Below are positions 1,309-64,000 of a DNA stretch of 64,000 nt, piece by piece; position 1 is the first letter of the stretch, and each line of letters opens with the position of its first letter. The translations under genes and the position numbers were made by a program. The notes below the pieces were generated by a model that had not been told where the DNA came from, ran no database searches, and saw only the letters and a program-made list of their open reading frames with translations. The DNA lies in assembly GCA_963930775.1 (NCBI GenBank), contig OZ005704.1, positions 868,001-932,000 on the forward strand, written 5' to 3'. The stretch comes from Cliona cf. orientalis (Eukaryota; Porifera; Demospongiae; Clionaida; Clionaidae).

Positions 1309-4300
1309 TTATTTTGCTTTGGTTTTTGGCACTACTGCACAAAGCTGAGGCCTTGGAGGTGGCAGCCTCAAATATTCTTCTAACTGTTCCTGGTTTTCAA
1401 GTTTGTACCATCTCCCATCCCGGTGGTACTCCAGCCTACAATTCTCCGTAGCAATGGTCACCTGTACTTTGCTAAGGAAAACTTTATGCTTGACTGGCTT
1501 GTCGCATCTGACTACTATCGTCTGCTCTGAATCGGGTAGCTTCACGCTGAAGGACTCCACAACTGTGGTGGTAGCTCGGGGACATACGCTTTGAATGTGT
1601 AACTTGGGAGTCATCGTGGGGCTGGGGGTCTTCACTTTATCTTCGCCACCTTCCTCGGTAAGGGTGGGAGGTCGACTGCCAGTACTTGCAGGGGTGTAAG
1701 CTATGATGTCGTAAGGGGTAACAGCTTCAGCAGATTCACCTGATGGAGCAGACTTGATGTGCGTACCATCTCGGAACTGACCTTGGTGGATCATTTGACG
1801 TACTGAGTTGTGATTTTCCAGAAAGCCAGGTGAATTTCCTTCAAGTAATTTCACCTGCCTCATGGTTTTAGCATCATAGGCTTCCCACATGATGACAGTG
1901 CCACTCTGACCGTTAGTAGTTGAAGCTTCATTTCCTTCTGTGGTATTCTGATCAAAACCTTCCACCAAAGGTCGGAACCCCTTACCTCCGCTTGCCACAA
2001 TGGCTTTCTCCATTTCACAGGGACCTGATGATGGAATGCAAGTGAGGAATCTGACATAATCACTGTAAGGATGGAACCAAGCTAAAAGTTCATCTTCATG
2101 GAACACCATGATGTGTCCAGAGGCCATGCCTACCCAGACTGTATCCAGGGCAGGTGTCATAGCAGTGATAAGCAGGTCCGGATCTTTTGTGTCTGAAGAT
2201 ATTCTCTTTAGGTGCTTTCTAGTGTCAATGTCGTACATGTGGCACTTGTTGTAAGCATCCCAGGCAGAGAGAACCACTCCACCGAGATGGGCACTCCAGA
2301 TCACATTGCTACTGGAGTCAAAGGAAAGCTGACCAATGTAGGCTTCATGGTCTCTTTCACGGTGGATGGAGCCTTCAAGAGCAAGGTTGTTGAAGTTGAG
2401 GAAGTAGATATTCCTTGTAGTAGCAACCCACACACACTGTTGAGTACAGACAATGCCATCAATAGCTTGCTCTGAAACAGATTTCTCATTGATCTGTTGT
2501 ATTTCATTGATAATATTGCAAAAGGAAAGGCAGTTTCCTTTGGCTGTACCCAAGTAGACTCTTCTGTCAGAAGCTGTGATACAGGAGACTGAATTATCAT
2601 GCATGGTAATGTTGTGCACTAACTCCCTTGAGCCAGTGCCAAGTATACTAATTTCATACTTGATTCCAAGTCTTGATCCCACCCAAACATGGTCACCGCA
2701 AAGTGCCATGTACTGGACTTGATCGACGTTGATAAGGACTCGGTTGACTTCTAACATGGTGTGGGTGTTGAACATGCTGACTTCAGCACCTTCAGCTCCA
2801 TCACAGCACACCCAGAGCTCACTCTGAAGCCGGTTGGGGTGCCCAGCTTTGGCAAAATTGGAGGGAGTTATGGCTATAGCTCGACGAAGTGACTGCTTCC
2901 CACTGATTGGTTGCACACACATCACCATCTGAGTAGCTGATCTGCAGACTTTCTTGATGATTTTGTTGGTGTCAAAGCGTTCATTGGGGTTGTCTTCCCA
3001 GCAAGCCTGCATGACTTGAGTGAGGTAATGGTAGCCTGTACGAGAAATATTGACATCTTGAAGCTCGGGACGATCACCTTGTTCGACGGCCACGTCAATT
3101 CTGTGAGGAGGGATGTTGTGATAAGGATGTCTACGAGCGATGACCTGGTAGAGGAACATGCCAAAGGAGAAGATGTCAGCTCTGTGATCGTAGACTGAAC
3201 GCTGCTTCCTCTTACCAATGTGCAGTACTTCAGGAGCAATGAATCCCTTTGTGCCTTGAAGGCCTCTCGCTCCAATAGGGGCTAGGTGAGTGGCAATGCC
3301 AAAATCGGTCATTTTGCAGTGGCACAATGAGTCTGGATCCAGAGTCCACAGCAAAACGTTGGCTGCTTTGAGACTACGGTAGATGATGCCTCGACTGTGA
3401 AGAAAGCGAAGAGCAGCTGCCATTTCTGCAGCTATCCTGAAAATGGTGAGGCGATGAACAGGGATCTTCTTTTTGAGAATTGGGAACTCGAGAGACTTGA
3501 GTGGAGCTTCTTCAAGTACAAGAGCTATGGGATGCACACAGACCCCAATGAGACACACTAGGCAGGGGTGGTGGCACTGCTGGAGCAGCTTGGCTTCTGA
3601 ACGGAGCTCAGTGAAAGCTTCTTCACTACGAGAAAGGTACTTCTTGATGGCTACAGACTTTCCTTTGTATTCACCTCGGTACACCTTTCCGTAGCCTCCC
3701 TTACCGAGCAGTGAGGTATCATCTTCTTGGTAGTTAACTTCATCAGCATCCAGAAGAAACCCTGGGTCAATATCTTGAAGGAGGAGATCTGGAACAATAT
3801 CAGCCAAAGATACTGTGTGATTTTTGGCCGGATCATCACGGAAGTAGCCACACTCCACTGTTGTTTCATTCTTTGTGATCACAGGCAGGCACTGCTCCAC
3901 TTTGAACTCAAACGGCTTGGTTCGTCCCAGTTTGATACACTCGAAGCAAGGCACCTTCTGCTCGAGTCCATTAGAACCATGCTTACCTTCCTGAAGACCA
4001 GGATACCACTCACCAACCAGTGATACCACAAGATCGACAAGCTGGCCAATAATCTTCTTTCCAGACTTGTTTGCTGAGGCAATCACATGAACACCTTCTT
4101 TCTTTTCTCTTTTGAAATGCTTGGTGCCAGTAAGGGACTCAATTCTAAACATAATCTCGGGATCTCTGTAGTAGAGCCCTGTTCTCCAGTACTCCACATG
4201 AATGTCTTTTACATCAAAGGGATCAGAAATATCATTGGGCAATTGCTTCGGAAAATTTGGCAGCAGCTGTGGAGCATTGATGAAAGGGTGCTGAGCTGAA

Positions 4301-7300
4301 ATGAACGATAGAGGACCACTGATAGTGGGGGCAGCAATGAAAGGAGCAGTAGATCCAAGAGTGCCAGCTGGGGTCTGGGCACTGATCGAGGAAGTAGTGG
4401 ACATATTCAAGGAGACCTCATCACTAGCACTGATATCACCAAATGGCCTATTGGCATCAGTAAGTGTGGCAGGGTGCATGCTGAAGCTCATTTCTGCCTC
4501 GGCACTGTGGCTTTTGGGGGTGACGGGAGAGGGAGCAGGCTCTGTAGTTGGCGTGGACTTATCCAAGGCACAGCAAACCTTTGGAACCAAGTGCATGATT
4601 CTGGAAAGCAAGCGACTCCAGAATCCAGGAGGTGTGTTGGCCGAGCTAAACATCAAAAACCTGGAATAGACGTGCTCCTTGGTGTCTTCTGTTTTGTCTT
4701 CGAACTCCTTTGGCCTTTCATCTGGTAGCATCGAGGGGATAAGAACTCGCCAGTTATCGAGAGGCAGGGCTATCTCAAATCTGTCAAGCAGGGTGAGGTA
4801 CTGCTCAAAATACTGCCAAGGAAACTGCTTATCCTTAAACAGCATGGGGATGTCCTTGGAGTAGAGGATACCACTCTTAACGAAGGGGTTCCTCTCTTTG
4901 ATGGTCACGACCTTGGACATCATGTCACAGAGCCAGCGAGGGTCGACGAAGTAGAGCTCGTGGAGGTTGTGTCCACGATCATCATAGTGAAGCAGGGAGC
5001 CCACATCGGTCAGGAAGAGAGTTGCAGTCTTCAACTCTTCATCATCTTGAATATCGGCCAAATTCATTTTATACACCATTGTACGGAATTCTTCTGCATG
5101 CATAATGGGCTCACGTATGCCTTGTCTTACCTCCTGCTGGACTGTTTCCAGCTGCTTGTCAAGAGCATGGTAGCTTGCTGGGATTTTCTGCCCCATGATC
5201 ACCTGGCCTGCTCGATTCTTGTAGTTGGCTGCATGGTTGTAGATGGCTTCCTTGAGGAGACCGATGTGTTCAATTCGATTCTTGAGGCCAACGGGGATGA
5301 CTTCCACAATCTGAAGCTTGTTGTTGTAGGAGGCAGCCAGATTGCCAACACGTTGAAGCAAGGCATCAATCTCTCCCCTCTCTTTGTCAGGTACTTCATC
5401 CAGGTGAGTACCGATGATGATAACACAGGAGCGAGGTGCTCGAAGGGCAATGTTGTTGAGCCAAGGCCTCAGCTCCTCCACACCTTTGTCTCCATGCTTC
5501 AGGTTGAAGAGAAGCAGGTAGAGGGAGCGTTGAGAGAGGAAGCACTGGTGGGTGGCATAGTACTCTTCTTGACCACCAAAATCCCAGATGCTGAAGTGAA
5601 AATTTCTCCTTCCTACGCTTGGACGGTACCACCACTCGCTCACATCCACCCCAACTGTTGATTCGTCTCCATATTCTTTTCCCAGGAGTCGAGCTACCAA
5701 TGTGGTTTTGCCACGATTAGCATAGCCAACAAGCATGAGCTTCATGCGATAGAAGCCTCTGGCATTACGAAGCTTGCTGTTCAGGTAGCGTATGCAATCA
5801 CGACACTCTTTTTGCACGTTTTTCGGTGGATCTTTGAGGTTCTTGAGACCAGTCAGATTGAGGTGAGAGAGGTAGGAAAGTCGTCCCATCTCAGCAGGAA
5901 GCGTCAGGATGTTAGGATTATCACTGAGAGTGAGCGAGTGAAGTGTGGTGAAGGAGCAAATGCAGAGAGGCACATTGCGGAATTTATTCTTGGATAAGTT
6001 GAGAGAGCGGATGGCTGGAGCGACAACATTGAGTGGCAGGTTATTGAGCTGGTTGTTGGAGAGATCGAGAACCGTGAGGCAAGGGGACCACTCTGCTATA
6101 TCGGGGATCTTGGTAAGCCTGTTGTTGGAAAGATTGAGCTCTTCCAAGCTTGGAAGCTCAAGAAGACATTTTGGGATTGTGACCAGCTCATTGTGTTGGA
6201 GATCAATCTTTACAACCTACAGAAATTTTGGTGAGAATTACATGTATCTCCATGCATGCAGCACAAGTTTAATACTGTACCATAATTTACTGTATCCTAT
6301 GGGTGGTGCTTCTCATTTTAGCCTCACTAAGTCAACCACTGTGAAACTATAGCTATTTACCACAGAAACAGAATTTTAACCACTATATCACTATTCTCTA
6401 ACATGCTTCTAGCACAAAATTAATGTCATTTGTGATCATGGATCTTAGAAGGGAACGAAAAGTTCGTCAGTAGCAAGAGGTTAAACTTCAAAGAAGAGAG
6501 GCCTCTAAGAAGAGGCATGGTCATGGACGATATTGCCATGGCACGTGGGGTATGTGTTCTATGAGCTCTAGTTACCTTAAGGATACTTTTGTTTACTGGT
6601 ACGATATTCAGTGAAATTAGCTATTTGCCTGATTTTTGCTAATATTTGTACCTACAAATATTAAAATTTTCAACATTTTCGAATAAATAGGATGTTAATT
6701 TTGAAAAATCACTAAAATGAAAATAAATGCACTATTTCCAAAATCCGCTAAGATTTGTACCTACAAAATTAATAATCATAACCCTAAGGTATGGGATTTT
6801 ATGGTAATACATGTACCTCTGTTACTTACTTGCTTCAAGTAGGTGGCAATTTCCGGAGGGAGGCTCTTGAATCCATTCCTGGCCAGCCTCAGCTTCTTCA
6901 CCCAGGCAATCTTCCTCAGCCAGGCAATATCGAGCGAGAGTAGGCGTAGTCCATGCCAGTAGACGTAGCCTTCCTCCTGGTTCACATCTGTTGTCAGGAG
7001 TAGCTCCTCTCTCACCTGACTCTGCCCATTGCGACGAGCAATCTCGATTGGTACAACGGTTGAGATGTTACCGGACAATATAGCTTTTTGTACATCCCCA
7101 AATGCATCATCTTCATAATCTTGTTTGTTTTGCAAGCCTGGTGCTGGCTCAGCAAATAGCTTTTGGATAATTGCTTTGTCTCCAGTCTGGGCGGCTATGA
7201 TCAACAGCAACATGGCTCGAGCCTGTGGCTTCCTTTCATCCTTGGCATACTGTAGGCACAATAGGAGCTCCTTAGCGCCCTTCACGACCAGCTTTCCAAC

Positions 7301-9268
7301 GTTGAGGTGATTGTCGTTTTTCACAGCAGCCCTGAGAGCTCGATCGAGGCAGCCAGGTTCAAGGCTGTCGGCTCCATTTTTAAGCAGCTCGGTGAGCTTA
7401 TCTCCATTGGTTTCAACCTCTTTTATGATCTCTGTGAAATTTCAGGATTGAATAAGAGTGTATACTTTAAGACTCATAGGAAAGTGATGGATAGTGCAAA
7501 GCGTTAATTCTGTTGTGACTAAGTCTATATATAACCACTGGGCCTGTGCCCCTGAAATAATCAACACAGTAGGATAATAAAGTTGTGTTTCATGACAGTC
7601 AAGCCAACATGGACATGTAATTTTTGAACTGGACGACCCATACTGTATATGAGCAAGTTTATTATGTGAAAAAATATATATATATAACAACTAGACCTAC
7701 ATTGTATTCTATCATAATACCATGTACTAGTTCAGCTCACCTTCACTTTGTAGAAGTTTCACAATTCTGTGCTTGGATCTTGCTGCCTGCTTTGGAGTTT
7801 TTCCATATTCATCCACACAGCTAATGTCAGCACCATGTGCCAACAGTTCTCGAACGCACTGGCTGTGACCATTGCTCGCTGCCAAGTGAAGAGGTGTGTA
7901 ACCACTGTTTGCTTGACAGTTCACATTTGCATTGCCAGTTAAGTCGAGTAAGTACCTTAAAACTACAGGTTTCCCACCAGCAGCAGCTTCGTGCAGTGGT
8001 GTGTAACCAAAGGCTCCCTTTCTGTTGGCTAGCATCTCTGCTAGATACTCAATATCATCAAGAAGGTCAACGTAAGCTTTTATGCTCTTCATATTACCCT
8101 CACGGCAGAGTTTGTGGAGTGTACATGACTTCTTCTCATTGATACGAAATTGAAGAACATTACTTTGCTTTTCAATAACTGAAAGTTCTTCCTCTGCTTC
8201 CATAAGTTGACCCTGTAATTGCACTATCTCTTTGTTGTTCTCTGTTTGGAGTGTATGAATCTTATCTATATGCTTCTTACTCGTGTTTTCAATCTCTAGC
8301 AGACCAGCAGCAATGGTCTCACGTTTCCTTTGAGAAACTTCCCTGATACTTATGCCATACTTTGGCATCTTTTTAAGTGTAGCAATTATCTCACAGAGCT
8401 TTTGAGCAATGGGGCGTTCAGCATGATCATCCTTTAAACAGTCAAGTGCTGTAGCTAGGAGAGGGTGGCTTGGATAGATTTTACTAATGTGATTTTGTCG
8501 TCGTTCTTGTTCCGATATTCGCTTCTCAAGTAGTCCTAAACCTGCCACTTCCACCTCCTTTCGTCGATTTCCAGGCTTAGGAAAGAGTTGTGTCATAGTC
8601 TGGACAGCGATGACTCCAAATGAGAAGCAGTCAATCTTCTCGGTGTACACTGGATTATCTTTAACAGCTTCTGGAGGCATGTAGACATCTGTGCCTGGAC
8701 ACATGGTGAAGGTAAGCTGAGTCGCTCGAGGGTTCATGTCCCCCAGTCTTGCCATTCCAAAGTCGGTCACCTTTGCTCGGATGTTGCCAATCATCAGCAC
8801 ATTATTGCTGGAGAGATCTCGATGGACAATACCATTGGAATGGAGAAATGAGAGAGCTAATGTGATATCATGGCATATATTGATCTGAATGTGGTAGGGG
8901 ATCAGCTGTGGGGAGCTTTCCAGAAAGTGTGTCAAGCTATCATCCATCAACTCCATTAGGAGAACTGGCAGGTGTGTGTCAGGATCTTGGTACATGCCCA
9001 GGTACTGGATGATGTTGGGGTGTCTTATGGTGCTCAGGAACTCACACTCTTGCTCAAACCTCCTCATTGGTAGCCTGTGCTCTCTGTGAGGTGCTATAAG
9101 CTGCTGTGCAGTTGGATCAGAGAGAGTTTCGTGAATGACTTTAGCAGCACAGAGGAGGCCATCACATTCAGCCTTACAAACTTTTCCATAGGACCCTACA
9201 CCAAGAACTTTGTCCTTGAAGAGTTGAATACTTCTGAAATGAAAATCCTTTTCCCATTTATGAGCCAT
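1309..9268 (-). CDS. ROCO-1: dual-kinase LRRK-like protein (kinase-ANK-LRR-Roc-COR-kinase-WD40)
   Basis: Model: complement(join(1309..6216, 6830..7431, 7741..9268)), 7038 bases, 2345 residues; the exon phases fit exactly. Residues about 18-285 are a protein kinase with loop GVGSYG, Lys43, HRD 149-151 and DFG 169-171, all intact. A coiled coil follows (about 330-390), then ankyrin repeats (YTPLHEAAAGG, YTPLHLAASNGH) into exon 2. Exon 3 starts at residue 711 with LRRs (LNLSNNRL, LDLSNNQL). Roc has P-loop GYANRGKT (874-881), DFGGQ (922-926) and THLD (980-983). COR follows, interrupted by a Pro/Ser/Thr-rich stretch. The second kinase has loop GKGGYGKV and Lys1568, but YRS (1656-1658) where HRD/YRD is expected, so the catalytic Asp is lost; its DFG (1681-1683) is intact. 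A WD40-like propeller and a small C-terminal domain end the protein. The C-terminal linker is shorter than in the other copies. An AATAAA signal overlaps the stop. Domain order after ankyrin matches LRRK1/2; the N-terminal kinase is extra. The start is the Met just before the kinase; a 5' non-coding exon cannot be excluded. Confidence 0.88.
6573..6791. mobile_element. Short terminal-inverted-repeat element (MITE-like) in intron 2 of ROCO-1
   Basis: The 219-bp segment begins TACCTTAAGG and ends ACCCTAAGGTA, which are near-perfect inverted copies. Its interior holds small palindromes around TTTGTACCTACAAA. It is absent from the equivalent introns of ROCO-3 to ROCO-6, while a second copy sits in the same intron of ROCO-2. 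No coding potential. The family was not identified. Confidence 0.6.
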
Positions 9269-9840: not shown

Positions 9841-12800
9841 TTATGATATTTTTGCTTTGGTTTTGTGCACTACTGCACAAAGCTGAGGCCTTGGAGGTGG
9901 ATGCCTTAAATATTCTTCTAACTCTTCCTGTGTTTGAAGTTTGTACAGTCTCCCCTCCTGGTAGTACTCCAGCCTAAAATTCTCCGTAGCAACAGTCACT
10001 TGTATTTCGCTAAGGAGAACATTATGCTTGACTGGTTTGTCACATCTGACTACTATCGTCTGCTCTGAATCTGGCAGCTTCACATTGAAGAATTCCACAA
10101 CTATGGTGGTAGCTCGGGGACGTGCACTTTGGATGACATTGTGTAACTCAGGAGTAATTGTGGGGCTAGGGGTCTTTACTTCCTCTTCACCACCTTCCTC
10201 ATAATCAGTAGATCGATTAGTATCTACCGTGGTTATACTACCTTCAGTAAAAACGTTAGTGTTCCTGTTTCTTAAGCTGTCTGTTCTGGCAGAATTCATA
10301 GAACTCTCCGTTAATGACAGACTGAGCTCTAGGGGCTGTGCATCCCTATCAGGGGTGTAAGCTATGTTGTCGTAAAGGGTAACAGCTTCAGTGGATTCAC
10401 CCGATGGAGTGGACCTGAGATGTGTACCATCTCGGAACTGACCTTGGTGGATCATTTGACACACAGTGTTGTGACTATCCAAGAAGCCAGGTGAGTTTTC
10501 TTCCAGTAGTTTCACCTGCCTCATGGTTTTAGCCTCGTAGACTTCCCACATGATGACAGTGCCACTCTGACCGTTAGTAATTGAAGCTTCATTTCCTTCC
10601 ATGGTACTCTGATCAAAACCTTCCACTAAAGGTCTGAATCCCTTACCTCCGCTTGCCACGATGGCTTTCTCCATTTCACAGGGACCTGATGATGGAATGC
10701 AAGTGAGGAATCGGACATAGTTAATGTAAGGATGGAACCATGCTAGAAGTTCATCTTCATGGAACACCATGATGTGTCCAGAGGCCATGCCTACCCAGAC
10801 TGTGTCCAGGGCAGGTGTCATAGCAGTGATAAGCAGGTCCGGATTTTTCGTGTCTGAGGAGATTCTTTTCAGGTGCTTTCCTGTGTCGATGTCATACATG
10901 TGGCACTTGTTGTGAGCATCCCAGGCAGAGAGAACCACTCCACCAAGATGGGCACTCCAGACAACATTGCTGTTGGAGTCAAAGGACAGCTGACCAATGT
11001 AGGCCTCCCGCTCTTTCTCACGGTGGATGGAGCCTTCAAGAGCAAGGTTATCAAAGTTGAGGAAGTATATGTACCTCGTGTGAGCGACCCACACACACTG
11101 TTGAGTGCAGACAATACCATCAATAGCATGCTCTGAGATGTACTTGTACCTTGGCTTGACATTAGCACGTACTCCACTGATATCATTGTAAAAAGAGAAG
11201 CAGTATCCTTCGAGAGTACCCAAGTAGACAGCTTTATCAGTGGCGGTAATACAGATTAAAGAGTTCTCACGCATGCAAACACTGTGCACCAATTCCCTTG
11301 AACCAATGCTAAAAATATCAATAACTCCATACTCTATTCCGGCTCTTGATCCCACCCAAACATGATCACCGCAAAGTGCCATGCACTGGACTTGGTTATC
11401 CTTGATGAAGGTTCGGTTGACTTTTACCATGGTGTGGGTATTGAACATGCTGACCTCAGTACCTTCAGCTCCATCACAGCACACCCAGAGCTCACTCTGA
11501 AGCCGATTTGGGTGCCCGGCTTTGGCAAAGTTGGAGGGAGTTATGGCTATAGCTCGACGAAGAGACTGCTTTCCACTAATTGGTTGCACACACATCACCA
11601 TCTGAGTTGCTGACCCACAGACTTTCTTGATGATTTTGTTGGTGTCAAAGCGATCATTGGGGTCGTCTTCCCAGCAAGCCTGCATGACTTGAGTGAGGTA
11701 GTGGTAGCCTGTATGAGAAACATCGACATCTTGAAGCTTGGGACGATCACCTTGTTCAATGGCAACATCAATTCTGTGAGGAGGGATGCTGTGATAAGGA
11801 TGTCTACGAGCGATGATCTGGTAAAGGAACATGCCAAAGAGGAAGATGTCAGCTTTGTGATCGTAGACTGAACGCTGCTTCCTCTTACCAATGTGCAGTA
11901 CTTCAGGAGCAGAGAATCCCGTCGTGCCTTGAAGGCCTCTTGCTCCAATAGGGGCTAGATGAGTGGCAAAGATAAAATCAGCCATTTTGCAGTGGCACAA
12001 GGAATCTGGATCCAGAGTCCACAGCAAAACGTTGGCTGCTTGGAGATCACGGTGGATGATGCCTCGACTGTGAAGAAAGCGAAGAGCAGCTGCCACTTCT
12101 GCGGCTACCCTGAAAATGGTGAGGCGATGAACAGGGATCTTCTTTTTGAGAATTGGGAACTCGAGAGACTTGAGTGGGGCTTCTTCAAGCACAAGAGCTA
12201 TGGGATGCATACAGATCCCAATAAGGCACACTACGCAGGGGTGGTGGCACTGCTGGAGCAGCTTGGCTTCTGAACGGAGCTCAGTGAAAGCTTCTTCACT
12301 ACGAGAGAGATACTTCTTGATGGCTACAGACTTTCCTTTGTATTCACCTCGGTACACCTTTCCGTAGCCTCCCTTACCGAGCAGCGAGGTATCATCTTCT
12401 TGGTAGTTGACCTCATCAGCATCCAGATGAAACTCTGGGTTGATATCTTGAAGGAGAAGATCTGGAACAATATCAGCTAAAGATATTGTGTGATTTTTGG
12501 CCGGGTCATCACAAAAGTAACCACATTTCATTATTGTTTCATTCTTTGCGATCATGGGCAGGCACTGTTCCACTTTGAATTCAAAAGGCTTGGCTCGTCC
12601 CAGTTTAATACACTCAAAACAAGGCACCTTCTGCTCAAGGCCGTTAGAGCCATGTTTACCTTCTTGAAGACCAGGGTACCACTCCCAAATCAGCAATACT
12701 ACAAGATCGATAAGCTGGCCAATAATCTTCTTTCCAGAATTATTAGCCGAGGCGATCACATGAACTCCTTCTTTTTTTTCTCTCTTGTACAGCTTGGAAT

Positions 12801-19905: not shown

Positions 19906-20030
19906 TTCTCATGGGTAATACATAATTCATCGTGACTCCTATTTGTGCGCATGCGCATCAAATTGAGCCTCTCCCCCCAACCAACGCCGGACGATCATGG
20001 CGACCTTCATATAAGTTGACTGGAATTCGC
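19906..20030. promoter_or_regulatory. Putative bidirectional promoter with NRF1-like palindrome
   Basis: The 125 bp between two head-to-head kinase starts contains TGCGCATGCGCA at 19946-19957, the classic NRF1 palindrome. The same palindrome recurs at 44350-44361 in the equivalent position of the second cassette. No TATA box is evident. Confidence 0.5.
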
Positions 20031-21426
<1,396 letters not shown>

Positions 21427-22280: not shown

Positions 22281-22308
22281 AAAAAAAAAAAAAAAAAAAA
22301 AAAAAAAA
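22281..22308. repeat. Poly-A tract of 28 bases
   Basis: Uninterrupted A run inside the transposon. No retroelement coding region precedes it, so it is called only as a simple repeat. Confidence 0.8.
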
Positions 22309-44407: not shown

Positions 44408-45961
<1,554 letters not shown>

Positions 45962-49600: not shown

Positions 49601-52600
49601 ATCACACGAATACCCTCTTTCTTTTTTCTTTTGAACTGCTTGGTGCCAGTAAGGGACTCAATTTGGAACATAATCTCTGGATCTCTGTAGTAGAGCCCTG
49701 TTCGCCAATACTCAAGATGGATATCATCAGTGTCAAAACAATCAGAAATATCATTTGGCAATTGCTTCGGAAAATTTGGCAGCAGCTGTGGAGCATTGAT
49801 GAAGGGTTGCTGAGCTGAAACGAACGGTAGAGGACCACTGATAGTGGGGGCAGCAATGAAAGGAGCAATAGATCCATCAGTGCCGGCTGGGGTCTGGGCA
49901 CTGGTTGAAGAAGCAGTGGACATATTCAAGGAGACCTCAGCACTAGCACTGATATCACCAAATGGCCTATTGGCCTCAGTAGGTGTGGCAGGGTACATGC
50001 TGAAGCTCATTTCTTCCTTGTTGGGGATGACAGGAATGGGAGCAGGCTCTGAAGTTGGTATGGACATATCCAAGGCATAGCAAACTTTTGGAACCGAATG
50101 CATGATTCTGGAAAGTAAGCGACTCCAGAATCCAGGAGGTGTGTTAGCCGAGCTGAATATGATTAATCTGGAATAAATATGCTCTTGGGCATCTATCTTT
50201 TCGTCCTTTAATTTCTTTAGCCTTTCGTCTGGCAACATTGAGGGAATAAGAAGTCGTCGGTTATCAAGAGGCAGGGCAATCTCGAATCTGTCAAGCAGAG
50301 TGAGGTACTGCTCGAAATACTGCCATGGGAACTGCTTGTCCTTGAACAGCATGGGGATGTCCTTGGAGTAGAGGATACCACTCTTAACGAAGGGGTTCCT
50401 TTCTTTGATGGTCACGACCTTGGACATCATGTCACAAAGCCAGCGAGGGTCGATAAAGTAGAGTTCATGGAGGTTGTGTCCACGATCATCATAGTGAAGC
50501 AGGGAGCCCACATCGGTCAGGAAGAGAGTTGCTGTCTTCAACTCCTCATCATCTTGAATATCGGCCAAATTCATTTGATGCACCATCATACGGAACTCTT
50601 CCACATGCATAATGGGCTCACGTATGCCTTGTCTTACCTCCTGCTGGATTGTTTCCAGCTGTTTATCAAGAGCATGGTAGCTGGCTGGGACCTTCTGCCC
50701 CATAATCACCTGGCCTGCTCGATTCTTGTAGTTAGCTGCATGGTTGTAGATGGCTTCCTTGAGGAGACCAATGTGTTCGATTTGATTCTTGAGGCCGACG
50801 GGGAGGACTTCCACGATTTGAAGCTTGTTGTTGTAGGAGGCAGCCAGATTGCCAACACGTTGAAGTAAGGTATCAATCTCTCCCCTCTCTTCGTCAGGTA
50901 TTTCATCCAGGTGAGTACCGATGATGATAACACAGGAGCGAGGTGCTAGAAGGGCAATGTTGTTGAGCCAAGGCCTCAGCTCCTCCACACCTTTGTCTCC
51001 ATGCTTCAGGTTGAAGAGAAGCAGGTAGAGGGAGCGTTGAGAGAGTAAACACTGGTGGGTGGCGTAGTACTCTTCTTGACCACCAAAATCCCAGATGCTG
51101 AAGTGAAAATTTCTCCTTCCCACACTAGGACGGTACCACCACTCACTCACATCCACGCCAACTGTTGATCTGTCTCCATATTCTTTCCCTTGGAGTCGAG
51201 CTGCCAACGTGGTCTTACCACAATTAGCATAGCCAACAATCATGAGTTTCATGCGATAGAAGCCTCTGGTGCTGCGAAGCTTGCTGTTCAGGTAGCGGAT
51301 GCAATCACGACACTCTTTTTGTAGGTTTTTTGGTGGATCTTTGAGGTTCTTGAGACCAGTCAGATTGAGGTGAGTGAGATATGAAAGTCGTCCCATCTCA
51401 GCAGGAAGAGACCGGATGTCAGGATTATCGCTGAGAATGAGAGAGTGAAGTGTGATGAAGGAGCAAATACAAAGAGGTACGTTGCGGAACAGATTCTTGG
51501 CCAAGTTGAGGGAATTGATTGCTGGAGCGACGGCATTGAGTGGCAGATTATTGAGCTGGTTGTTTGAGAGGTCGAGAACCGTGAGGCAAGGGGACCACTC
51601 TGCTACGTCGGGGATCTCGGTAAGCCTGTTGTTGGAGAGATTGAGCTCTCCCAAGCTTGGAAGCTCAAGAAGACATTTTGGGATCATTCTCAGCTCATTA
51701 TGCTGGAGATCAATCATTACAACCTACAAAAATATAATAATTATTATGGTGAGAATTATCTCCATGCAGCATAAGTACCATAATCTAATTTAGGCAGACT
51801 ATGGGTGGTATTTCTCAGTTTAGGCTCAGACGGGAGATTGGATCACATGAGGTCCTGATTTGAGCACACTGTGGCCACTGTGTTATTGTATTCATTCATC
51901 ATAGAGCCAGAGTGTTTCACCATGCAGGAGAAAAAAATTCACTTATCATGATTACATAGAGGATATGGCAACTGGCTCTCTTTCAAGCAACTACAATGCT
52001 TATGCATAAGGCTCATAATTATGTTAATTAAACATAAAGCACTAAATCTTGCTTTTGATTGTCAAAACATTCATGCGTAAGTCGTCTGTACTAATTTATT
52101 TAAACTTAAGTGTCAATATGTACTACTTCCCAGCGGCTATGTATTATCACCCACACACCCCCTGTGATATCTTTTAGTTCTGTGTCTTGTGTATAGGCCC
52201 CAACCATAAAATTACAGTCCAGTAGCTGTATGTGTCACCAAAGACATGCAGCAAAGGGGAAGGGAGTATAACATAATAATTATAATATTATTATTATAAC
52301 TGCGGAAATCATGGCACTACCTACTTGCTTCAAGTAGGTGGCCATTTCTGGAGGGAGGCTCTTGAATCCATTCCTAGCTAGCCTCAGCTTCTTCACCCAG
52401 GCAATCTTCCTCAGCCAGGTGATATCAAGCGAGAGTAGGCGTAGTCCATGCCAGTAGACGTAGCCTTCCTCCTGGTTCACATTTGTCTTCATCAGTAGTT
52501 CCTCTCTCACCTGACTCTGCCCATTGCGACGAGCAATCTCGATTGGTACAACGATTGAGATATTACCGGACAGCACAGCTTTTTGTGCATCACCAAACGC

Positions 52601-54846
52601 ATCATCTTCATAGTCTTGCTTGCTTTGCAAGCCTGGTGCTGGCTCAGCAAATAGCTTTTGGATAATTGCTTTGTCTCCCGTCTGGGCGGCTATAATCAAT
52701 AGCAACATGGCTCGAGCCTGTGGCTTCTTCTCATCCTTGGCATACTGTAGGCATGATAGGAACTCTGTAGCTCCCTTCACGACCAGCTTTCCAACGTTGA
52801 GATGATTGTCATTTTTCACAGCAGCCCTGAGAGCTCGATTGAGGCAGCCAGGTTCAAGGTTGTCGGTTCCATTTTTAAGCAGCTCGGTGACCTTATCTCC
52901 ATTGGTTTCAACCTCTTTTATGAGCTCTATGAATATCAGGATTGAATATGACTATGCAAGTATAAATTCTGTATGCATACACATGCAAGGGGCAATGTGA
53001 TATGATTTCATTGATGTCACAGATTCAAGATTGACAGGGTGAGAATTGCAGCCAGACTCGTAGTAAAGGGGTGGACTTAGGACCTAGGTAGCAGTAAGTT
53101 AAAGCAAGTGTTAATTCTGTTGTGTGCAGTGCAGCTGGAGCCTAGCTATATGCACCTAATTTTGTTTCATGACAGTCAAGCCAACATGCACATCTAGTCT
53201 AATTTTGAACCAAACAACCCCATACTGTATTATAGTATATGAGCAACCTTAATGTGAAAATAGGAGGGATAGAATATCATAACTATACTGTTCTCATGTA
53301 CTAATTACAGCTCACCTTCACTTTGTAGAAGTTTCACAATACTATGCTTGGATCTTGCTGCCTGCTTTGGAGTTTTTCCATGTCGATCCACACAGCTAAC
53401 GTCAGCACCATGTGCCAACAGCTCTCGAACACACTGGCTGTGACCGTTGCTTGCTGCCAAGTGAAGAGGTGTGTAACCATTGTTTGCTCGACAGTTCACA
53501 TTTGCCACATTGCCAGTAAAGTCAAGTAAATACCTTAAAACTTCAGGTTTTCCACCAGCGACAGCTTCGTGCAGTGGTGTGTAGCCGAAGAATCCCTTTC
53601 TGTTGGCTAGCCTCTCAGCTAGACACACAACATCATCAAGAAGGTCGACATAAGCTTTTATGCTCTTCATATTACCCTCACGGCACAGTTTGTGGAGTGT
53701 ACATGACTTCATCTCATTGATACGAAATTCAAGAACATTACTTTGCTTTTCAGTAACTGAATATTCTTCCTTTGCTTCCACAAGTTGACCCTTTAATTGC
53801 ACTATCTGTTTGTTGTTCTCTGTTTGGAGTGCATGAATCTTATCTACATGCTCCTTGCTCACGTTTTCAATCTCTAGCAGACCAGAAGCAATGGTCTCAC
53901 ATTTCTCTTGAGAAACTTCCCTGATACTTTCATCATACTTTGGCATCTGTTTAAGTGTAGCAACTATCTTACAGAGCATTTGAGCACTGGGGCGTTCAGT
54001 AGGGTCATCCTTTAAACAGTCAAGTGCTGTAGCTAGGAGGGGGTGGCTTGGATCGATTTTACTAATGTGATTTTGTCGTCGTTCTTGTTCTGATATTCGC
54101 TTCTCCACTAATCCCACGTTCTCGATATCTATTTCCTTTCGTCGATCTCCAGGCTGAGGAAAGAGTCGTGTCATAGTCTGGATAGCGATGACTCCAAATG
54201 AGAAGCAGTCAATTTTCTCAGTGTACACTGGATTATCTTTAACAGCTTCTGGAGGCATGTAGACATCTGTGCCTGGGCACATGGTGAAAGTAAGGTAAGT
54301 CGCTCGAGGGTTCATGTCTCCCAATCTTGCCATTCCAAAGTCAGTCACCTTTGCTCGGATGTTGCCAATCATCAGCACATTGTTGCTGGAGAGATCTCTG
54401 TGGACAATGCCATTGGAGTGGAGAAACGAGAGAGCTAATGTGACATCATGGCATATGTTGACCTGAATGTGGTAGGGGATCGGCTGTGGGGAGGTTTCCA
54501 GAAAGTGGGTCAAGCTGTCGTCCATCAGCTCCATTATAAGAACTGGCAGGTGTGTTTCAGGATCTTGGTACATGCCCAGGTACTGGATGATGTTGGGGTG
54601 TTTTATTGTGCTCAGGAACTCACACTCTTGCTCAAATCTCCTCATTGGTAGCCTGTGCTCTCTGTGAGGTGCTATTAGCTGCTGTGCAGTTGGATCAGAG
54701 AGAGTTTCGTGAATGATTTTAGCAGCACAGAGGAGGCCATCACATTCAGCCTTGCAGACTTTTCCATAGGATCCTATACCAAGAACTTGGTCCTTGAAGA
54801 GTTGAATACTTCTGAACTGAAATTCCTTTTCCCGTTTATAAGCCAT
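46684..54846 (-). CDS. ROCO-5: dual-kinase LRRK-like protein, both kinases with complete motifs
   Basis: Model: complement(join(46684..51723, 52325..52926, 53316..54846)), 7173 bases, 2390 residues; phases fit. The N-terminal kinase has GIGSYG, AAK, HRD and DFG. Roc has P-loop GYANCGKT (Arg to Cys at a variable position), DFGGQ and THLDE. The second kinase has GKGGYGKV, AIKK, YRD and DFG; YRD is also what human LRRK2 uses, so this is the only copy whose C-terminal kinase has every expected residue. COR carries a Pro/Ser/Thr-rich insert, then follow WD40-like repeats and the C-terminal domain. Its closest relative is the broken ROCO-3 (shared introns, linker TEGNITTVDTNRSLTISDYE and upstream flank). 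An AATAAA signal overlaps the stop. This copy is the best reference for the ancestral architecture and the likely functional survivor of the ROCO-3/ROCO-5 pair. Confidence 0.88.
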
Positions 54847-56038: not shown

Positions 56039-59000
56039 TTATATCACCACACAAAGTTGAGGCCTCTGAGGTGGCAGCCTCAAATATTTATCTAACTGGT
56101 TCTGAGTTTGAAGTTTGTACAGTCTCCCCTCCCAGTAGTACTCCAGCCTACAATTCTCCGTAGCAACAGTCACCTGTACTTCGCTAAGGAGAACTTGAAG
56201 CTTCACTGGCTTATCGCATCTGACTACTATCGTCTGCTTTGAATCAGGTAGCTTCACGCTGAAGGACTCCATGACTGTGGTGGTAGTTTGGGGACATACG
56301 CTTTGGATGTGTAACTCTGGAGTCATGGGGCAATTGGTCTTCACTTCACCTTCTTCCTCAGTAATGATGGAAGGTTGATCAGTAATTGCTGTGGTTCTAC
56401 CACTATCAGAAAAGAAATTGGTGTTCCTTTTTTTTAGGCTGTCTATTCTGGCAGGGTTCATAGAGAAGCTCTCCCTTTGTGAGAGACTGAGCTCTAGGGG
56501 CTGCGCATCCCTATCAGGGGTGTAAACTATGTTGTCGTAAGGGGTAACAGCTTCGGCAGATTCAGCCAATGGAGTGGACTTGATGTGCGTACCATCTCGG
56601 AACTGACCTTGGTGGATCGTTCGACGAATGGTGTGGTGGTTGTCCAAATAGCTAGGTGAGTTTTCTTCGAGTAGCTTCACCTGCCTCATGGTTTTAGCCT
56701 CGTAGGCTTCCCACATGATGATAGTGCCACTCTGACTGTTAATGGTTGAAGCTTCATTTCCTTCTGTGGTACTCTGATCAAAACCTTCTACCAAAGATTG
56801 GAATCCTATACCTCCACTTGCCACAATGGCTTTCTCCATTTCACAGGGACCTGACGATGGAATGCAAGTGAGGAATCGGACATAATCACTGTAAGGATGG
56901 AACCAAGCTAAAAGTTCATTTTCATGGAACACCATGATGTGTCCAGAGGCCATGCCTACCCAAACTGTATCCAGGGCAGGTGTCATAGCAGTGATTAGCA
57001 GGTCTGGATCTTTGGTGTCTGGGGAGATTCCTTTCAGGTGCGTTACTGTGTCGATATCGTACATGTGGCACTTTTTGTAAGCATCCCAGGCAGAGAGAAG
57101 TACTCCACCAAGATGGGCGCTCCAGACGATATTGCTATCAGAGTCAAAGGACAGCTGACCGATGTAGGCCTCTTGCTCTTTCTCATGATGGATGGAGCCT
57201 TCGAGAGCAAGGTTGTCAAAGTTGAGGAAGTAGATGTACCTTGTTTGAGCAACCCACACACACTCTTTGGTGCAGACAATCCCATCAACAGCATGCTCCG
57301 AGATGTACTTGTACCTTGGCTTGACGTTAGCACGTATTTCACAGGTGTCTTTGTAAAAGGAAAAGCAGTATCCTTTTAGAGTACCCAAGTAGACCGCTTT
57401 ATCGGTAGCTGTGATACAGGAGACGGAGTTCTCGTGCATGCGAACGTTGTGCACCAATTCCTTCGAACCAATGCTAAAAATTTCAATAGCTCCATACTCT
57501 ATTCCTGCTCTTGACCCCACCCAAACATGGTCACTGCAAAGTGCCATGCACTGGACTTGGTTGTCCTTGATGAAATATCGGTTGACCTTTGCCATAGTGT
57601 GGGTGTTATATATGCTGACTTCAGCACCTTCAGCTCCATCACAGCACACCCAAAGCTCACTCTGAAGTCGATTTGGGTGCCCAGCTCTCGAAAAATTGGA
57701 GGGAGTTATGGCTAAAGCTTGATGAATTCGAAGAGACTGCTTTCCACTGATTGGTTGCACACACATCACCATCTGAGTTGCTGATCCACAGACTTTCTTG
57801 ATGATTTTGTCAGTATCGAAGCGATTCTTAGGGTTGTCTTCCCAGCAAACCTGCATGACTTGAGTGAGGTAGTGGTACCCTGTACGAGAAATATCGATGT
57901 CTTGAAGCTTGGGACGATCACCTTGTTCGATGGCCACATTAATTTTGTGGGGAGGAATGTTGTCGTATGGATATCTACGAGCAATGATCTGGTAAAGGAA
58001 CATGCCAAAGGAGAAGATATCAGCTCTGTGATCGTAGACTGAATGCTGCTTCCTCTTACCAATATGAAGCACTTCTGGAGCAATGAATCCCCTTGTGCCT
58101 TGAAGGCCTCTTGCTCCAATAGGAGCTAGATGAGTGGCAATGCCAAAATCAGCCACTTTGCAGTGACAGAGTGAATCTGGATCCAGAGTCCACAGCAAAA
58201 CGTTGGCTGCTTTGAGATTACGGTAGATGATGCCTCGACTATGAAGAAAGCGAAGACCAGCTGCCACTTCTGCAGCTATCCTAAAAATGGTGAGACGATG
58301 AACAGGAATCTTCTTTTTGAGAACTGGGAACTCAAGAGACTTGAGTGGGGCTTCTTCAAGCACAAGAGCCATCAAGGGATGCACACAGATCCCAATGAGA
58401 CACACTAGGCAGGGGTGGTGGCACTTCTGGAGCAGCTTGGCTTCTGAACGGAGTTCAGTGAAAGCTTCTTCACTACAAGAGAAATACTTCTTGATGACTA
58501 CAGACTTTCCTTTGCATTTTCCTCGGTACAGCTTGCCATAGCCTCCCTTACTGAGCAGCAAGGTATCATCTTCTTGGTAGTTGATCCCATCAGCATCCAG
58601 AAGAAACTCTGGGTTGATATCTTGAAGGAGGAGATCTGGAACAATATCAGCCAAAGATACTGTATGATTTTTGACTGGGTCATCTCGGAAGTAGCCACAC
58701 TCCATTGTCATTTCATTCTTTGCGATCATAGGCAAGCACTGCTCCACTTTGAACTCGAATGGCGTGGGTCGTCCCAGTTTGATACACTTGAAGCAAGGCA
58801 CTTTCTGCTCGAGGCCATTAGAGCCATGCTTACCTTCCTGAAGACCAGGGTACCACTCACTAACCAGTAATACCACAAGATCGACAAGTTGGCCGATAAT
58901 CTTCTTTCCAGACTTGTTAGCTGAGGCAACCACATGAACACCTTCTTTCTTTTCTCTTTTGAAGTGCTTGGTGCCAGTAAGGGACTCGATTCTGAACATA

Positions 59001-62000
59001 ATCTCTGGATCTCTGTAGTAGAGCCCTGTTCGCCAGTACTCTATATGAATCTCCTTTGCATCAAAGGAATCAGAAATATCATTTGGCAATTGCTTCGGAA
59101 AATTTGGCAGCAGCTGTGGAGCATTGATGAAAGGATGCTGAGCTGAAACAAACGGTAGAGGACCGCTGATAGTGGGGATGGCAATGAAAGGAGCAGTAGT
59201 AGATCCAGGAGTGCCAGCTGGGGTCTGGGCACTGATCGAGGAAGTAGTGGACATATTCAAGGAGACCTTAGCACTAGCACTGATATCACCAAATGTCCTA
59301 TTGGCCTTGGTAGGTGTCACTGGGTGCATACTAAAGCTCATTTCTACCTCGGCATTGTGACTGTTGGGGGTGACAGGAGGGGGAGCAGGCTCTAAAGTTG
59401 GAGTAGACTTATCCAAGGCATAGCAAACCTTTGGAACCGAATGCATAATTCTGGAGAGCAAGCGACTCCAGAATCCAGGAGGCGTGTTGGCTGAGCTAAA
59501 CATCACAAACCTGGAATAGACATGCTCCTTGGTGTCTTCTTTTTCGTCTTCAAACTCCTTTGGTCTTTCATCTGGCAACATGGAGGGGATAAGAAGTCGT
59601 CGGTTATCGAGAGGCAGGGCAATCTCGAATCTGTCAAGCAGAGTGAGGTACTGCTCGAAATACTGCCATGGAAACTGCTTATCCTTGAACAGCATGGGGA
59701 TGTCCTTGGAGTAGAGGATACCACTCTTAACGAAGGGGTTCCTCTCTTTGATGGTCACGACCTTGGACATCATGTCACAGAGCCAGCGAGGGTCGACAAA
59801 GTAGAACTCGTGGAGGTTGTGTCCACGATCATCATAGTGAAGCAGGGAGCCCACATCGGTCAGGAAGAGAGTTGCAGTCTTCAACTCTTCATCATCTTGA
59901 ATATCGGCCAAATTCATTTGATGCACCATCATACGGAACTCTTCTGCATGCATAATGGGCTCACGTATGCCTTGTCTTACCTCCTGTTGGACTGTTTCCA
60001 GCTGTTTATCGAGAGCATGGTAGCTGGCTGGGATCTTCTGCCCCATGATCACCTGGCCTGCTCGATTCTTGTAGTTGGCTGCATGGTTATAGATGGCTTC
60101 CTTGAGGAGACCGATGTGCTCGATTCGATTCTTGAGGCCGACAGGGAGGACTTCCACGATCTGAAGCTTGTTGTTGTAGGAGGCAGCCAGATTGCCAACA
60201 CGTTGAAGCAAGGCATCAATCTCTCCCCTCTCTTCGTCAGGTATTTGATCCAGGTGAGTACCGATGATGATAACACAGGAGCGAGGCGCTCGAAGGGCAA
60301 TGTTGTTGAGCCAAGGCCTCAGCTCCTCCACACCTTTGTCTCCATGCTTCAGGTTGAAGAGCAGCAGGTAGAGGGAGCGTTGAGAGAGGAAGCACTGGTG
60401 GGTGGCGTAGTACTCTTCTTGACCACCAAAATCCCAGATGCTGAAGTGAAAAGCTCTCCTTCCCACACTAGGACGGTACGACCACTCACTCACATCCACC
60501 CCAACTGTTGACTCATCTCCGTATTCTTTGCCCCGGAGTCTAGCTACCAACGTGGTCTTACCACGATTAGCGTAGCCAACAAGCATGAGTTTCATGCGGT
60601 AGAAGCCTCTGGCACTACGAAACTTGCTGTTCAGGTAGCGGATGCAATCACGACACTCCTTATGCAGTTTTTTTGGTGGATCATAGAGGTCATTGAGACC
60701 GCTCAGATTGAGGTGAGAGAGGTAGGAAAGTCGTCCCATCTCAGCAGGAAGCGTCAGTATGTCAGGATTATCGCTGAGATTGAGCGAGTGAAGTGTGATG
60801 AAGGAGCAAATGCAGAGAGGCACATTACGGAACATATTCTTGGCCAAGTTGAGGGAGCTGATGGCTGGAGCGATGACATTGAGTGGCAGATTTTTGAGCT
60901 GATTGTTGGAGAGATCGAGAACCATGAGGCAAGGGGACCATTCTGCTACATCAGGGATCTCGGTAAGCCTGTTGTTGGAGAGATTGAGCTCTCCCAAGCT
61001 TGGAAGCTCAAGAAGACATTTTGGGATTGTGACCAGCTCATTGTGTTGGAGATCGATCTTTACAACCTGCAGTGTACAAGAAGGAAAGCAATAATCATTA
61101 TTAGTTCGATATGTGTATCTGTGGTTGCTAAACTGAGAACAAGACATATTGGCAGGGTTGTCTCTAGTTTAAAAATGCACACAATGGACTGCAGCAAAAA
61201 CAGTGAGTCGTTTTTAGATCAGATAAGGAAACATGAAACAAATTCGAAGCGGCTGCCAAATGTTTACCATGGAGTGAAGCAGGCCCCTTCAGTATATTCA
61301 AAACAAACATACACACATGACTATATTATAGTCCAGTGCTACACATCTGAGATGCATAAAGTAAACTTTTCAGTTTTTATCTCTCTCTCTCTCTCTCTCT
61401 GTATCTCTCCGATAAATACCATATTGCATTTAAAGTAATTGTTCCGTGCATCCTCATTTCCTAGGGATCATGCATGTGTTCAAATATGACAGTTTTATTG
61501 TAGCCATTGTTCATGTGTATGCATATGATTTGTACATATGCATATGTATGAGGAAAAGCGAAGGAGGGAAAGAGAGAGGAGAGAGAGACAAAACATTAGC
61601 TACACGAGAAAGAACCTCCACAATGATTGGGAGGACAGAGGACTGACCTGCTTCAAGTAGGTGGCCATTTCTGGAGGAAGGCTCTTGAATCCATTTCTGG
61701 CCAGCCTCAGGTTCTTCACCCAGGCAATCTTCCTCAGCCAGGCTATATCGAGCGAGAGTAGCCGTAGTCCATGCCAGTAGACACAGCCTTCCTCCTGGTT
61801 CACATCTGTCTTCAGGAGTAGCTGCTCCCTCACCTGACTCTGTCCGCTGCGACGAGCAATCTCCATTGGTACAACGGTTGAGATATTACCAGATAGCACA
61901 GCTTTTTGTACATCATCAAACGCATCATCTTCATAGTCTTGCTTATTTTCTAAGCCTGGTGCCGGCTCACCGAATAGCTTTTGGATAATTGCTTTATCAC

Positions 62001-64000
62001 CCGTCTGGGCGGCTATGATCAACAGCAACATGGCTCGAGCCTGTGGCTTCTTCTCATCCTTGGCATACTGTAGGCACGATAGGAGCTCCTTAGCGCCCTT
62101 CACAACCAGCTTTCCAACGTTGAGGTGATTGTCATTTTTCACAGCAGCCCTGAGAGCTCGATTGAGGCAGCCAGGTTCAAGGCTGTCTGCTCCACTTTTA
62201 AGCAGCTCAGTGAGCTTATCTCCGTTGGTTTCAACCTCTTTTATGATCTCTATGAAATTTTAGGATTGAATATGAGTGTATACTCTAAGACGCATAGGAA
62301 AGGGGTGGATAGTGCAAAGCGTTAATTCTGTTGTGTGACATTGTTGGCTAAGACTAGTAAAACCACAATGCAGCCTATGACCCTGAAATAATCAACACAG
62401 TAGGATAATTAAATTTTAAATGTGAGGTTGTGTTTCATGACAGTCAAGCCAACATGCACACAACTGGATGACCCATGCAGTATTATGAGCGAGTTTATTA
62501 ATAGGAGGGATAGAATCTCACAACTGTTACCACGTACTGATTTTTTCAGCTCACCTTCACTTTGTAGAAGTTTCATAATAATATTATTATGCTTGGATCT
62601 TGCTGCCTGCCTCGGAGTTTTTCCATATTGATCCACAAGGCCAATGTCAGCACCATGTACCAATAGCTCTCGAACACACTGGCTGTGACCGTTGCTCGCC
62701 GCCAAGTGAAGGGGTGTGTATCCTTTGTTTGCTGGACAGTTCACATTTGCATTGCCAGTTAAGTCGAGCAAATACTTCAAAACTTCAGGTTTTCCACTGG
62801 CGGCAGCTTCGTGCAGTGGTGTGTAGCCAAAAGCTCCCTTTCTGTTGGCTAGCCTCTCAGCTAGACACTCAATATCATCAAGAAGGTCGACATAAACTTT
62901 TATGCTCTTCATATTACCCTCATGGCACAGTTTGTTAAGTGAACATGACTTCTTCTCATTGATACGAAATTGAAGAACATTACTTTGCTTTTCAATAACT
63001 GAAAATTCTTCCTTTGCTTCCATAAGTTGACCCTGTAATTGCACTATCTCTTTATTGTTCTCTGTTTGTAGTGTATGAATCTTATCTATATGCTTCTTAC
63101 TCATGTTTTCAATCTCTAGCAGACCAGCAGCAATGGTCTCGTTTTTCTCTTCCCTGATACTTACGCCATACTTCGGCATCTTTTTAAGCATAGCAACTGT
63201 CTCACAGAGCGTTTGAGCATTGGGGCGTTCAGTATGATCATCCTTCAAACAGTCAAGTGCTGTAGCTAGGAGAGGGTGGCTTGGATTGACTTTGCTGATG
63301 TGATTTTGTCGTCGTTCTTGTTCTGATATTCGCTTCTCAAGTAATCCCACATTATCAATCTCTACTTCTTTTCGTCGATCTCCAGGCTGAGGAAAAAGCC
63401 TAGTCATAGTCTGGATAGCGATGACTCCAAATGAAAAGCAGTCAATTTTCTCCGTATACACTGGATTATCTTTAACAGCTTCTGGAGGCATGTAGACATC
63501 TGTGCCTGGACACATAGTGAAGGTAAGCTGAGTCGCTCGAGGGTTCATGTCCCCCAGTCTTGCCATTCCAAAGTCGGTCACCTTTGCTCGGATGTTGCCA
63601 ATCATCAGCACATTGTTGCTGGAGAGATCTCTGTGGACAATACCATTGGAGTGGAGAAACGAGAGAGCCAGTGTTACATCATGGCATATATTGACCTGAA
63701 TGTGGTAGGGGATCGGTCGTAGGAAGCTTTCCAGAAAGTGGGTCAAACTGTCGTCCATCAGCTCCATTAGAAGAACTGGCAGGTGTGTATCAGGATCTTG
63801 GTACATGCCCAGGTACTGGATGATGTTGGGGTGTCTTATGGTGCTCAGGAACTCACACTCTTGCTCAAACCTCCTCATTGGTAGCCTGTGCTCTCTGTGA
63901 GGTGCTATTAGCTGCTGTGCAGTTGGATCAGAGAGAGTTTCGTGAATGACTTTAGCAGCACAGAGGAGGCCATCACATTCAGCCTTACAGACTTTTCCAT
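56039..64000 (-). CDS. ROCO-6: dual-kinase LRRK-like protein (start beyond right edge)
   Basis: Model: complement(join(56039..61066, 61648..62249, 62555..>64000)). Exons 3 (1676 codons) and 2 (602 bases) are complete; exon 1 is cut at the window edge within the glycine loop (GKVCKAECDG). The N-terminal kinase retains HRD and DFG. Roc has GYANRGKT, DFGGQ and THLDQ. The second kinase is the most altered: loop SKGGYGKL (first Gly to Ser), VIKK, and YRN in place of HRD; DFG is kept. The linker NFFSDSGRTTAITDQ and intron 2 pair it with ROCO-4. As in ROCO-4, exon 3 stays open into the preceding intron with a Met (to 61147). Exon 1 lacks a few residues before the coiled coil (SIREEKNE compared with SIREVSQEKHE). 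Intron 2 has a CT microsatellite at 61380-61400. Confidence 0.86.
61380..61400. repeat. CT dinucleotide microsatellite in intron 2 of ROCO-6
   Basis: About ten CT units. The ROCO-4 intron has only a short equivalent near 40170, so the tract has expanded since duplication. Confidence 0.8.

Follow-up and report, generated by a model that had tools for sequence, protein, structure and literature searches.

The window analyzed here (64,000 nucleotides; C16:868001-932000 in the 217 Mb genome of the sponge Cliona cf. orientalis) holds six tandem ROCO genes, A-F, all on the minus strand and with three coding exons apiece, in which a protein kinase (the N-kinase) precedes ankyrin repeats and a chain of the LRRK1/LRRK2 type that includes a kinase of its own (the C-kinase). 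We regard this architecture, and its origin by joining of a kinase to the front of a ROCO gene, as firm. Judging from the residues at the two kinase sites, most copies look like ROCO scaffolds that bear a putatively active kinase of TKL type in front and a pseudokinase on the C-terminal side.

Gene A illustrates the arrangement. Exon 1 (7741-9268) carries the N-kinase (HRD aspartate codon 8816-8818), a linker and ankyrin repeats, and its frame matches Pfam Pkinase (2.6e-40) and ankyrin (1.2e-31); exon 2 (6830-7431) encodes an ankyrin/LRR-like stretch that matched no Pfam family at E 0.1, the exon-2 frame of gene E giving a weak ankyrin match only (0.075). Exon 3 (1309-6216) encodes LRR, then Roc (1.3e-21) followed directly by COR-A (1.8e-17) and COR-B (4.7e-07), all three over the Pfam cut-off, and after these a kinase (6.7e-37) whose HRD aspartate is replaced by serine (3373-3375), an LRRK2-type beta-propeller (8.7e-08, above cut-off) and a tail. 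Against PDB, exon 3 of gene E finds LRRK2 best (8.3e-136) and LRRK1 next (2.3e-116). The LRR-Roc-COR-kinase-WD40 order of the LRRK group is present in gene A, but the kinase behind COR is not the only one, a second lying in exon 1 (by Pfam in gene A, and with motifs that recur in each of the six window copies). The initial annotation, made from the letters alone, had proposed a domain search as a check on the fusion, and in the gene A frames that search returned kinase and ankyrin, then LRR-Roc-COR-kinase-WD40. Its placing of kinases "at both ends" was inexact, since the beta-propeller and tail come after the second kinase. The tails (in E the last ~96 residues, 46684-46974; in B ~99 residues, 9841-10140) are similar in five of the six window copies, the final residues of gene C being unlike the others, and the E and B tails matched no Pfam family.

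Other searches characterized the remaining parts. The linker, which had been described as a coiled coil, gives weak Pfam matches (0.006-0.015) to coiled-coil-type families, and in Pfam none of the three frames of gene A matched NACHT or NB-ARC at E 0.1. The N-kinase is called IRAK4-like here by way of solo1, a kinase-only relative that is 63-64% identical to exon-1 references and has IRAK4 as its nearest PDB match (1.6e-22); whole exon 1 matched ankyrin-type chains only among the best 60 of 216 PDB matches. Exon 1 of gene E has no relative among viral contigs. An AlphaFold2 model of the COR-B-to-tail part of gene E has a mean pLDDT of 26.7.

With GT/AG splice sites, read directly, the coding sums are 7038 (A), 7191 (B), 7158 (D), 7173 (E) and 7155 bases (F), with one stop in each model; the values for A, B, D and E reproduce exactly those of the initial annotation. 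Matches to exon 3 with at least 50% identity occur at no fewer than 14 loci of the genome. Nine of them have the front kinase, namely A-F, G (C16:948-957 kb), H (C10) and I (C16:5.51 Mb). At the other five, S, C5, C18, C2a and C2b, the DNA examined showed no N-kinase (for C2a, ~0.4 kb upstream of the first ankyrin-like frame, so that an N-kinase further up is possible). The key control is S (C16:397900-405700), a gene of single-kinase plan ~465 kb from the array on the same chromosome; over residues 1-1517 its exon 3 and that of A share 91% identity, it opens with an ankyrin exon bearing its own ATG, and just upstream of it lies an opposite-strand gene that is TECPR-like by eye. Both intron positions of the dual-kinase genes are common to S and to the far more distant C5; as neither showed a front kinase in the DNA examined, the ankyrin exon together with exons 2 and 3 makes up one old gene. 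Kinase and ankyrin parts share an unbroken frame in the eight copies A-H, and a chance frame is excluded, since exon 1 is open in these genes and both its kinase part (omega 0.20) and its ankyrin part (0.35) are under purifying selection, omega being the mean pairwise dN/dS, here over A-H with I left out.

These observations also bear on a different reading of exon 1, in which it would mostly encode a separate kinase-ankyrin protein ending in intron 1, with the ROCO chain starting elsewhere. The exon-1 frames do continue beyond the donor before stopping inside intron 1, and two kinase-only genes lie within the array. On the other hand, S and C5, which showed no N-kinase in the DNA searched, have intron 1 and the ankyrin coding part in common with these genes; the ankyrin part lies in the kinase's own unbroken frame in eight copies; and among the six window genes exon 1 varies in length (1525-1540) by multiples of three only, while the introns do not. 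We consider such a separate protein distinctly improbable. The assertion in the initial annotation that the fusion is not an annotation artefact is supported, the fusion being present in the genome itself.

The probable source of the front kinase lies close by. In A, D and E, query nucleotides ~630-640 to 1439-1529 of exon 1 are 87-92% identical in DNA to six C16 genes of kinase-kelch type (L018, L019 and L021-L024). From nucleotide 1750 (A and D) or 1836 (E) onward the similarity is to the first, ankyrin-coding exon of S, at 73-77% DNA identity; the stretch between matched neither parent in these three copies. The six kelch-type genes occupy 942-982 kb of C16 at distances of 10-50 kb past gene F, have gene G in their midst, and are single open frames of ~730-800 residues. 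In L022 Pfam finds a kinase and Kelch_1 (6.7e-22); kelch was recognized by Pfam in this gene only and by eye in the other translations inspected. On sequence evidence, exon 1 is a chimera of the kinase of a kinase-kelch gene and a ROCO ankyrin exon. In a 33-row kinase tree the N-kinases of the dual genes cluster together, with support of 81/73 for all nine and 97/94 for eight, within a clade that also takes in the kinase-only genes and seven kinases of kelch type, of which six come from C16 and one from C15; in an ankyrin tree S falls outside the nine dual genes (93/90). One fusion followed by duplication would be the simplest reading. A retrocopy, possible given single-exon parents, was considered as the source of the front kinase and dropped. 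In the exon-3 tree D and F are sisters (100/100), as are C and E (100/98); the kinase tree instead joins A with D, and this disagreement suggests exchange between copies.

Along the minus strand the genes run kinase-only, F, E; kinase-only, D, C; kinase-only, B, A. The array is thus a repeated block of one kinase-only gene and two ROCO genes, with one ROCO broken. The initial annotation had described six tandem dual-kinase genes: the six minus-strand copies were recovered, as five unbroken models plus the frameshifted C, but they do not make a uniform set. The exons of gene B lie at 16649-18188, 15837-16438 and 9841-14889; those of D at 41299-42823, 40377-40984 and 34835-39859; and those of E at 53316-54846, 52325-52926 and 46684-51723. 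In gene C, exons 1 (32817-34344) and 2 (31810-32411) are intact and exon 3 (26150-31163) is split by frameshift into frames 30339-31163 and 26150-30415. The window end cuts exon 1 of gene F (62555-64000), whose ATG is at 64079, 79 bases past that end, so the F model was read with adjoining DNA; its other exons are at 61648-62249 and 56039-61066. Split haplotypes were rejected as a source of the copies, which are too different: the last 1035 residues of E are 83-88% identical to those of the other five.

Two kinase-only genes lie in the window, both frames of a kinase with a charged helix: solo1 (18826-19908), with HRN for HRD, and solo2 (43262-44422), with HRN and the DFG stretch missing. Two further kinase-only frames stand beside dual genes (L015:3671-4549 by G and L013:3638-4537 by F), and all four read HRN; they are probably pseudokinases maintained as genes of their own. 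Tandem repeats with units of 127 and 152 bases lie at 23002-23630 and 24547-25427, in the interval from solo1 to gene C, and on the opposite strand an open frame at 19926-20243 (+) resembles, by eye, the N-lobe of another kinase. An Rfam search gave zero matches.

The two kinases of the dual genes differ in their catalytic motifs. HRD and DFG are kept by the N-kinase in all nine dual genes and by the C-kinase in two (E and I). The HRD aspartate of the C-kinase is replaced in five of the nine, by serine in A and H and by asparagine in C (YRN, 28325-28327), D (YRN, 37013-37015) and F (YRN, 58217-58219); B and G keep HRD, with DFG reading DFI and its glycine lost (in B the aspartate codon is 11977-11979). 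LRRK2 has YRD and DYG, hence tyrosine for histidine is no loss. Gene E (C-kinase YRD at 48889-48891, with DFG) is the only window copy to keep both the HRD aspartate and DFG. If the initial annotation's "dual-kinase" is taken to mean two working kinases, it is not supported for most copies, the C-kinase residues in question being complete, within the window, in E alone. Among the open-frame dual genes (A, B, D, E, F, G and H) the N-kinase motifs are complete in 7/7 and the C-kinase motifs in 1/7, namely E. The motifs are intact in S; in three other paralogues that have no N-kinase in the DNA examined the C-kinase reads FRD/DFS (C5), YRD/NFD (C18) and YRD/DLN (C2a). Over the 13 rows of the C-kinase table, from which a C2 copy (1915536-1917065, L046) was omitted because it matches exon-3 residues 1-508 only and has no kinase part, three (E, I and S) have an intact C-kinase. 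Parsimony on the 11-row exon-3 tree requires at least four changes of C-kinase motif state. That gain of the N-kinase caused the decay of the C-kinase was rejected, since these outgroups also have an altered DFG.

Both kinases might nevertheless work, in an intramolecular relay where one would switch the other by phosphorylation within a ROCO dimer. In gene E the HRD/YRD and DFG motifs and the beta-3 lysine are present in both kinases, and the C-kinase is under purifying selection in every set examined. Yet E alone among the seven open-frame dual genes keeps both sets of catalytic residues, and the HRD aspartate is gone in five of nine copies; we hold such a relay to be improbable.

Selection along the chain was compared segment by segment. 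Exon 2 has an omega of 0.21, and eight exon-3 segments range from 0.10 to 0.42 over A, B, D, E, F, G and H (C was left out of exon-3 values for its frameshift; I, S and C5 are outside the exon-2 and seven-gene exon-3 sets). The core of the N-kinase has the same omega, 0.13, in eight dual genes and in six local kelch-type kinases. For the C-kinase, omega is 0.28 (0.20-0.39) in the motif-broken set (A, B, D, F, G and H) versus 0.11 (0.07-0.16) in the motif-intact set (S, E and I), a factor of 2.5 between sets of unequal divergence; the other seven exon-3 segments give factors of 0.66-1.47 for the same two sets (e.g., Roc 0.21 and 0.32, WD40 0.22 and 0.15). The contrast of 0.28 with 0.11 suggests that the broken C-kinase is relaxed yet kept as a fold.

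These values weigh on the view that the copies are decaying tandem duplicates without much function, the C-kinase losses being part of a general decay. Two of the nine dual copies are indeed broken: C by a frameshift in Roc (30339-30415), and I in exon 1, by a frameshift that puts the N-lobe of its kinase in another frame and then a TAG in the ankyrin part. The DxxG of Roc is also lost in B and G. Against general decay stand the unbroken three-exon models of five window genes, the open exon frames of G and H, the omega of 0.10-0.42 in the eight exon-3 segments of seven genes, and the loss of C-kinase motifs where N-kinase motifs are spared; we find this view very improbable.

The best explanation overall, which we moderately favor, is fusion of an N-kinase onto a ROCO gene, block duplication, and a move of output to the N-kinase that left a C-terminal pseudokinase; its mechanistic part we hold to be about as likely as not. 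The kinase half of an adjoining kinase-kelch gene would have been fused in frame ahead of an LRRK-type ROCO gene, giving it a front exon, and the chimera would then have been copied in blocks. In the encoded proteins the ankyrin, LRR and WD40 parts may bind partners, the Roc-COR GTPase may pair two chains and set their state, and the paired N-terminal TKL-type (IRAK4-like) kinases could phosphorylate one another and downstream targets. The N-terminal kinase would thereby have taken over output from the C-terminal one, which would persist as a folded pseudokinase that might brake, gate or bait the active kinase; JAKs, where a pseudokinase regulates an active kinase, and plant tandem kinase proteins offer analogies. 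Gene E and single-kinase S may still use the C-terminal kinase.

Several observations weigh against this explanation. Decay of the C-kinase is not tied to gain of the N-kinase, as C5, C18 and C2a also have an altered DFG. The DFI of B and G keeps the aspartate, so that activity need not be lost, and asparagine or serine in place of the HRD aspartate would be compatible with residual activity. In Roc, the switch-II sequence DFGGQ reads DFTVQ in B and DFASQ in G, which removes the DxxG glycine and keeps the P-loop; GTP hydrolysis may be lost in these two copies. Constraint on the linker is not significant (omega 0.63, 0.34-1.19), the motif-broken and motif-intact sets differ in divergence as noted, the exon-3 tree is mostly unresolved, and support for the split of S from the nine dual genes is no higher than 93/90. 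With two of nine copies broken, part of the dual-kinase family is decaying.

Among known systems, DAPK1 (ROCO group 3) likewise has a kinase and ankyrin repeats ahead of Roc-COR, and gene A has this trait of the DAPK group; it departs from the group in possessing LRR and in having no Death match at E 0.1. The kinase of DAPK1 is of the CaMK class, whereas the N-kinase here is nearest IRAK4 (via solo1). Published systems are compared here as described in excerpts of the papers cited. DAPK1 differs further in being without LRR, in ending with a death domain and in having no kinase behind COR (PMC6337361, PMC6320773); it is a precedent for a Roc domain controlling a kinase in front of it (PMC6320773), and, of the three groups of ROCO proteins, its group is the only one with a kinase before Roc-COR and has no LRR (PMC6337361). 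LRRK1 and LRRK2 (group 2) have the same ankyrin-LRR-Roc-COR-kinase-WD40 order (PMC6337361), which is also the plan of the single-kinase paralogue S; unlike LRRK1 and LRRK2, the genes described here have an extra kinase ahead of ankyrin and a C-kinase that is mostly without the usual catalytic residues. The sponge's own kinase-kelch genes are the closest relatives of the exon-1 kinase, but end in a kelch propeller and have no ROCO part.

Plant tandem kinase proteins (wheat WTKs, Pm57/Lr9) also combine an active-type kinase and a pseudokinase in one chain (PMC11153570). Two kinases with one degenerate are found here by motif, gene E excepted, a likeness in working rather than in kinship. Comparison of Pm57 with Lr9 gave strong purifying selection on the kinase (0.14) and relaxed selection on the pseudokinase (0.77), a contrast similar to that between N- and C-kinase here (PMC11153570). 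In the excerpts no Roc-COR is described for the wheat proteins, and the Pm57 kinases may have arisen by duplication, whereas those of the sponge come from two different families.

A ROCO protein with two kinases is not mentioned in the excerpts of PMC6337361, PMC11378527, PMC2927912, PMC4104024, PMC12909245 and PMC6208332, and none was found among the matches listed in open-access full text, a scope that leaves out most subscription papers, preprints and protein databases; an unnamed database annotation of such a protein may exist. The initial annotation knew of no described ROCO family with both kinases, and the claim of novelty is plausible: the architecture lies outside the three topology groups given in the excerpt of PMC6337361.

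Genome-wide searches, whose counts are lower bounds, scored 84 of 1689 candidates for the exon-1 kinase, 29 of 809 for exon 3 and 150 of 290 for COR-A. The exon-1-like kinase family is very large, with at least 84 places, nine of them the dual genes themselves; many of these kinases occur in single frames of ~700-800 residues, those inspected having the order kinase-coiled coil-kelch, and kinase motifs were checked in 21 (L018-L038) of the 75 non-dual places. Of the 150 COR-A places, 147 scored above the Pfam cut-off (from 290 first-look candidates, the adjoining Roc not being checked place by place), so that ROCO-type genes may number well above one hundred in this genome. Three ROCO paralogues (L039, at C18:3057000-3066900, and L045 and L046, both on C2) have two successive LRR-Roc units, the first Roc being degenerate by eye, and a Death domain lies ahead of one of them (L046:7533-7847, Pfam 8.4e-09). 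The 5' frame of the C5 paralogue (L040:1695-2051) is CARD-like, with a sub-threshold Pfam CARD match (0.073) and a match (0.034) to a designed protein on template 1cy5, the APAF1 CARD. Elsewhere, C12 encodes a silicatein with a serine-type active site (GASYAFS); silicatein marks demosponges, and this gene by itself makes a demosponge very likely as the source.

Humans have four ROCO genes and Trichoplax at least 17, including some with CARD and death domains, and the most ROCOs are reported from brown algae (PMC11378527). The Trichoplax and other expanded repertoires resemble that of the sponge in their CARD and death ROCOs, as with the Death domain at C2 and the CARD-like frame at C5; they differ in that the excerpt mentions no N-terminal kinase (PMC11378527). 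We offer tentatively the idea that sponge ROCOs are built like NLRs, a fixed sensor/switch core (LRR-Roc-COR-pseudokinase-WD40) receiving output modules (Death, CARD-like or a complete IRAK4-like kinase) swapped by 5' exon. If so, the IRAK4-like kinase would replace an adaptor-plus-kinase step, and the old LRRK kinase would be a pseudokinase in most copies, a natural split of scaffold and catalytic roles.

By the described rule, ROCO proteins with LRR carry the kinase behind COR, and DAPK1, which is without LRR, carries it ahead. The present genes show that this rule has exceptions and that a ROCO scaffold can acquire a possible signaling output through local fusion of genes. The genes form a natural paralogue series, from S (C-kinase motifs and no N-kinase) through E (both) to A, B, D, F, G and H (N-kinase intact, C-kinase degenerate), which bears on the question, posed by the Parkinson's disease gene LRRK2, of what depends on kinase activity and what on a folded kinase domain alone.

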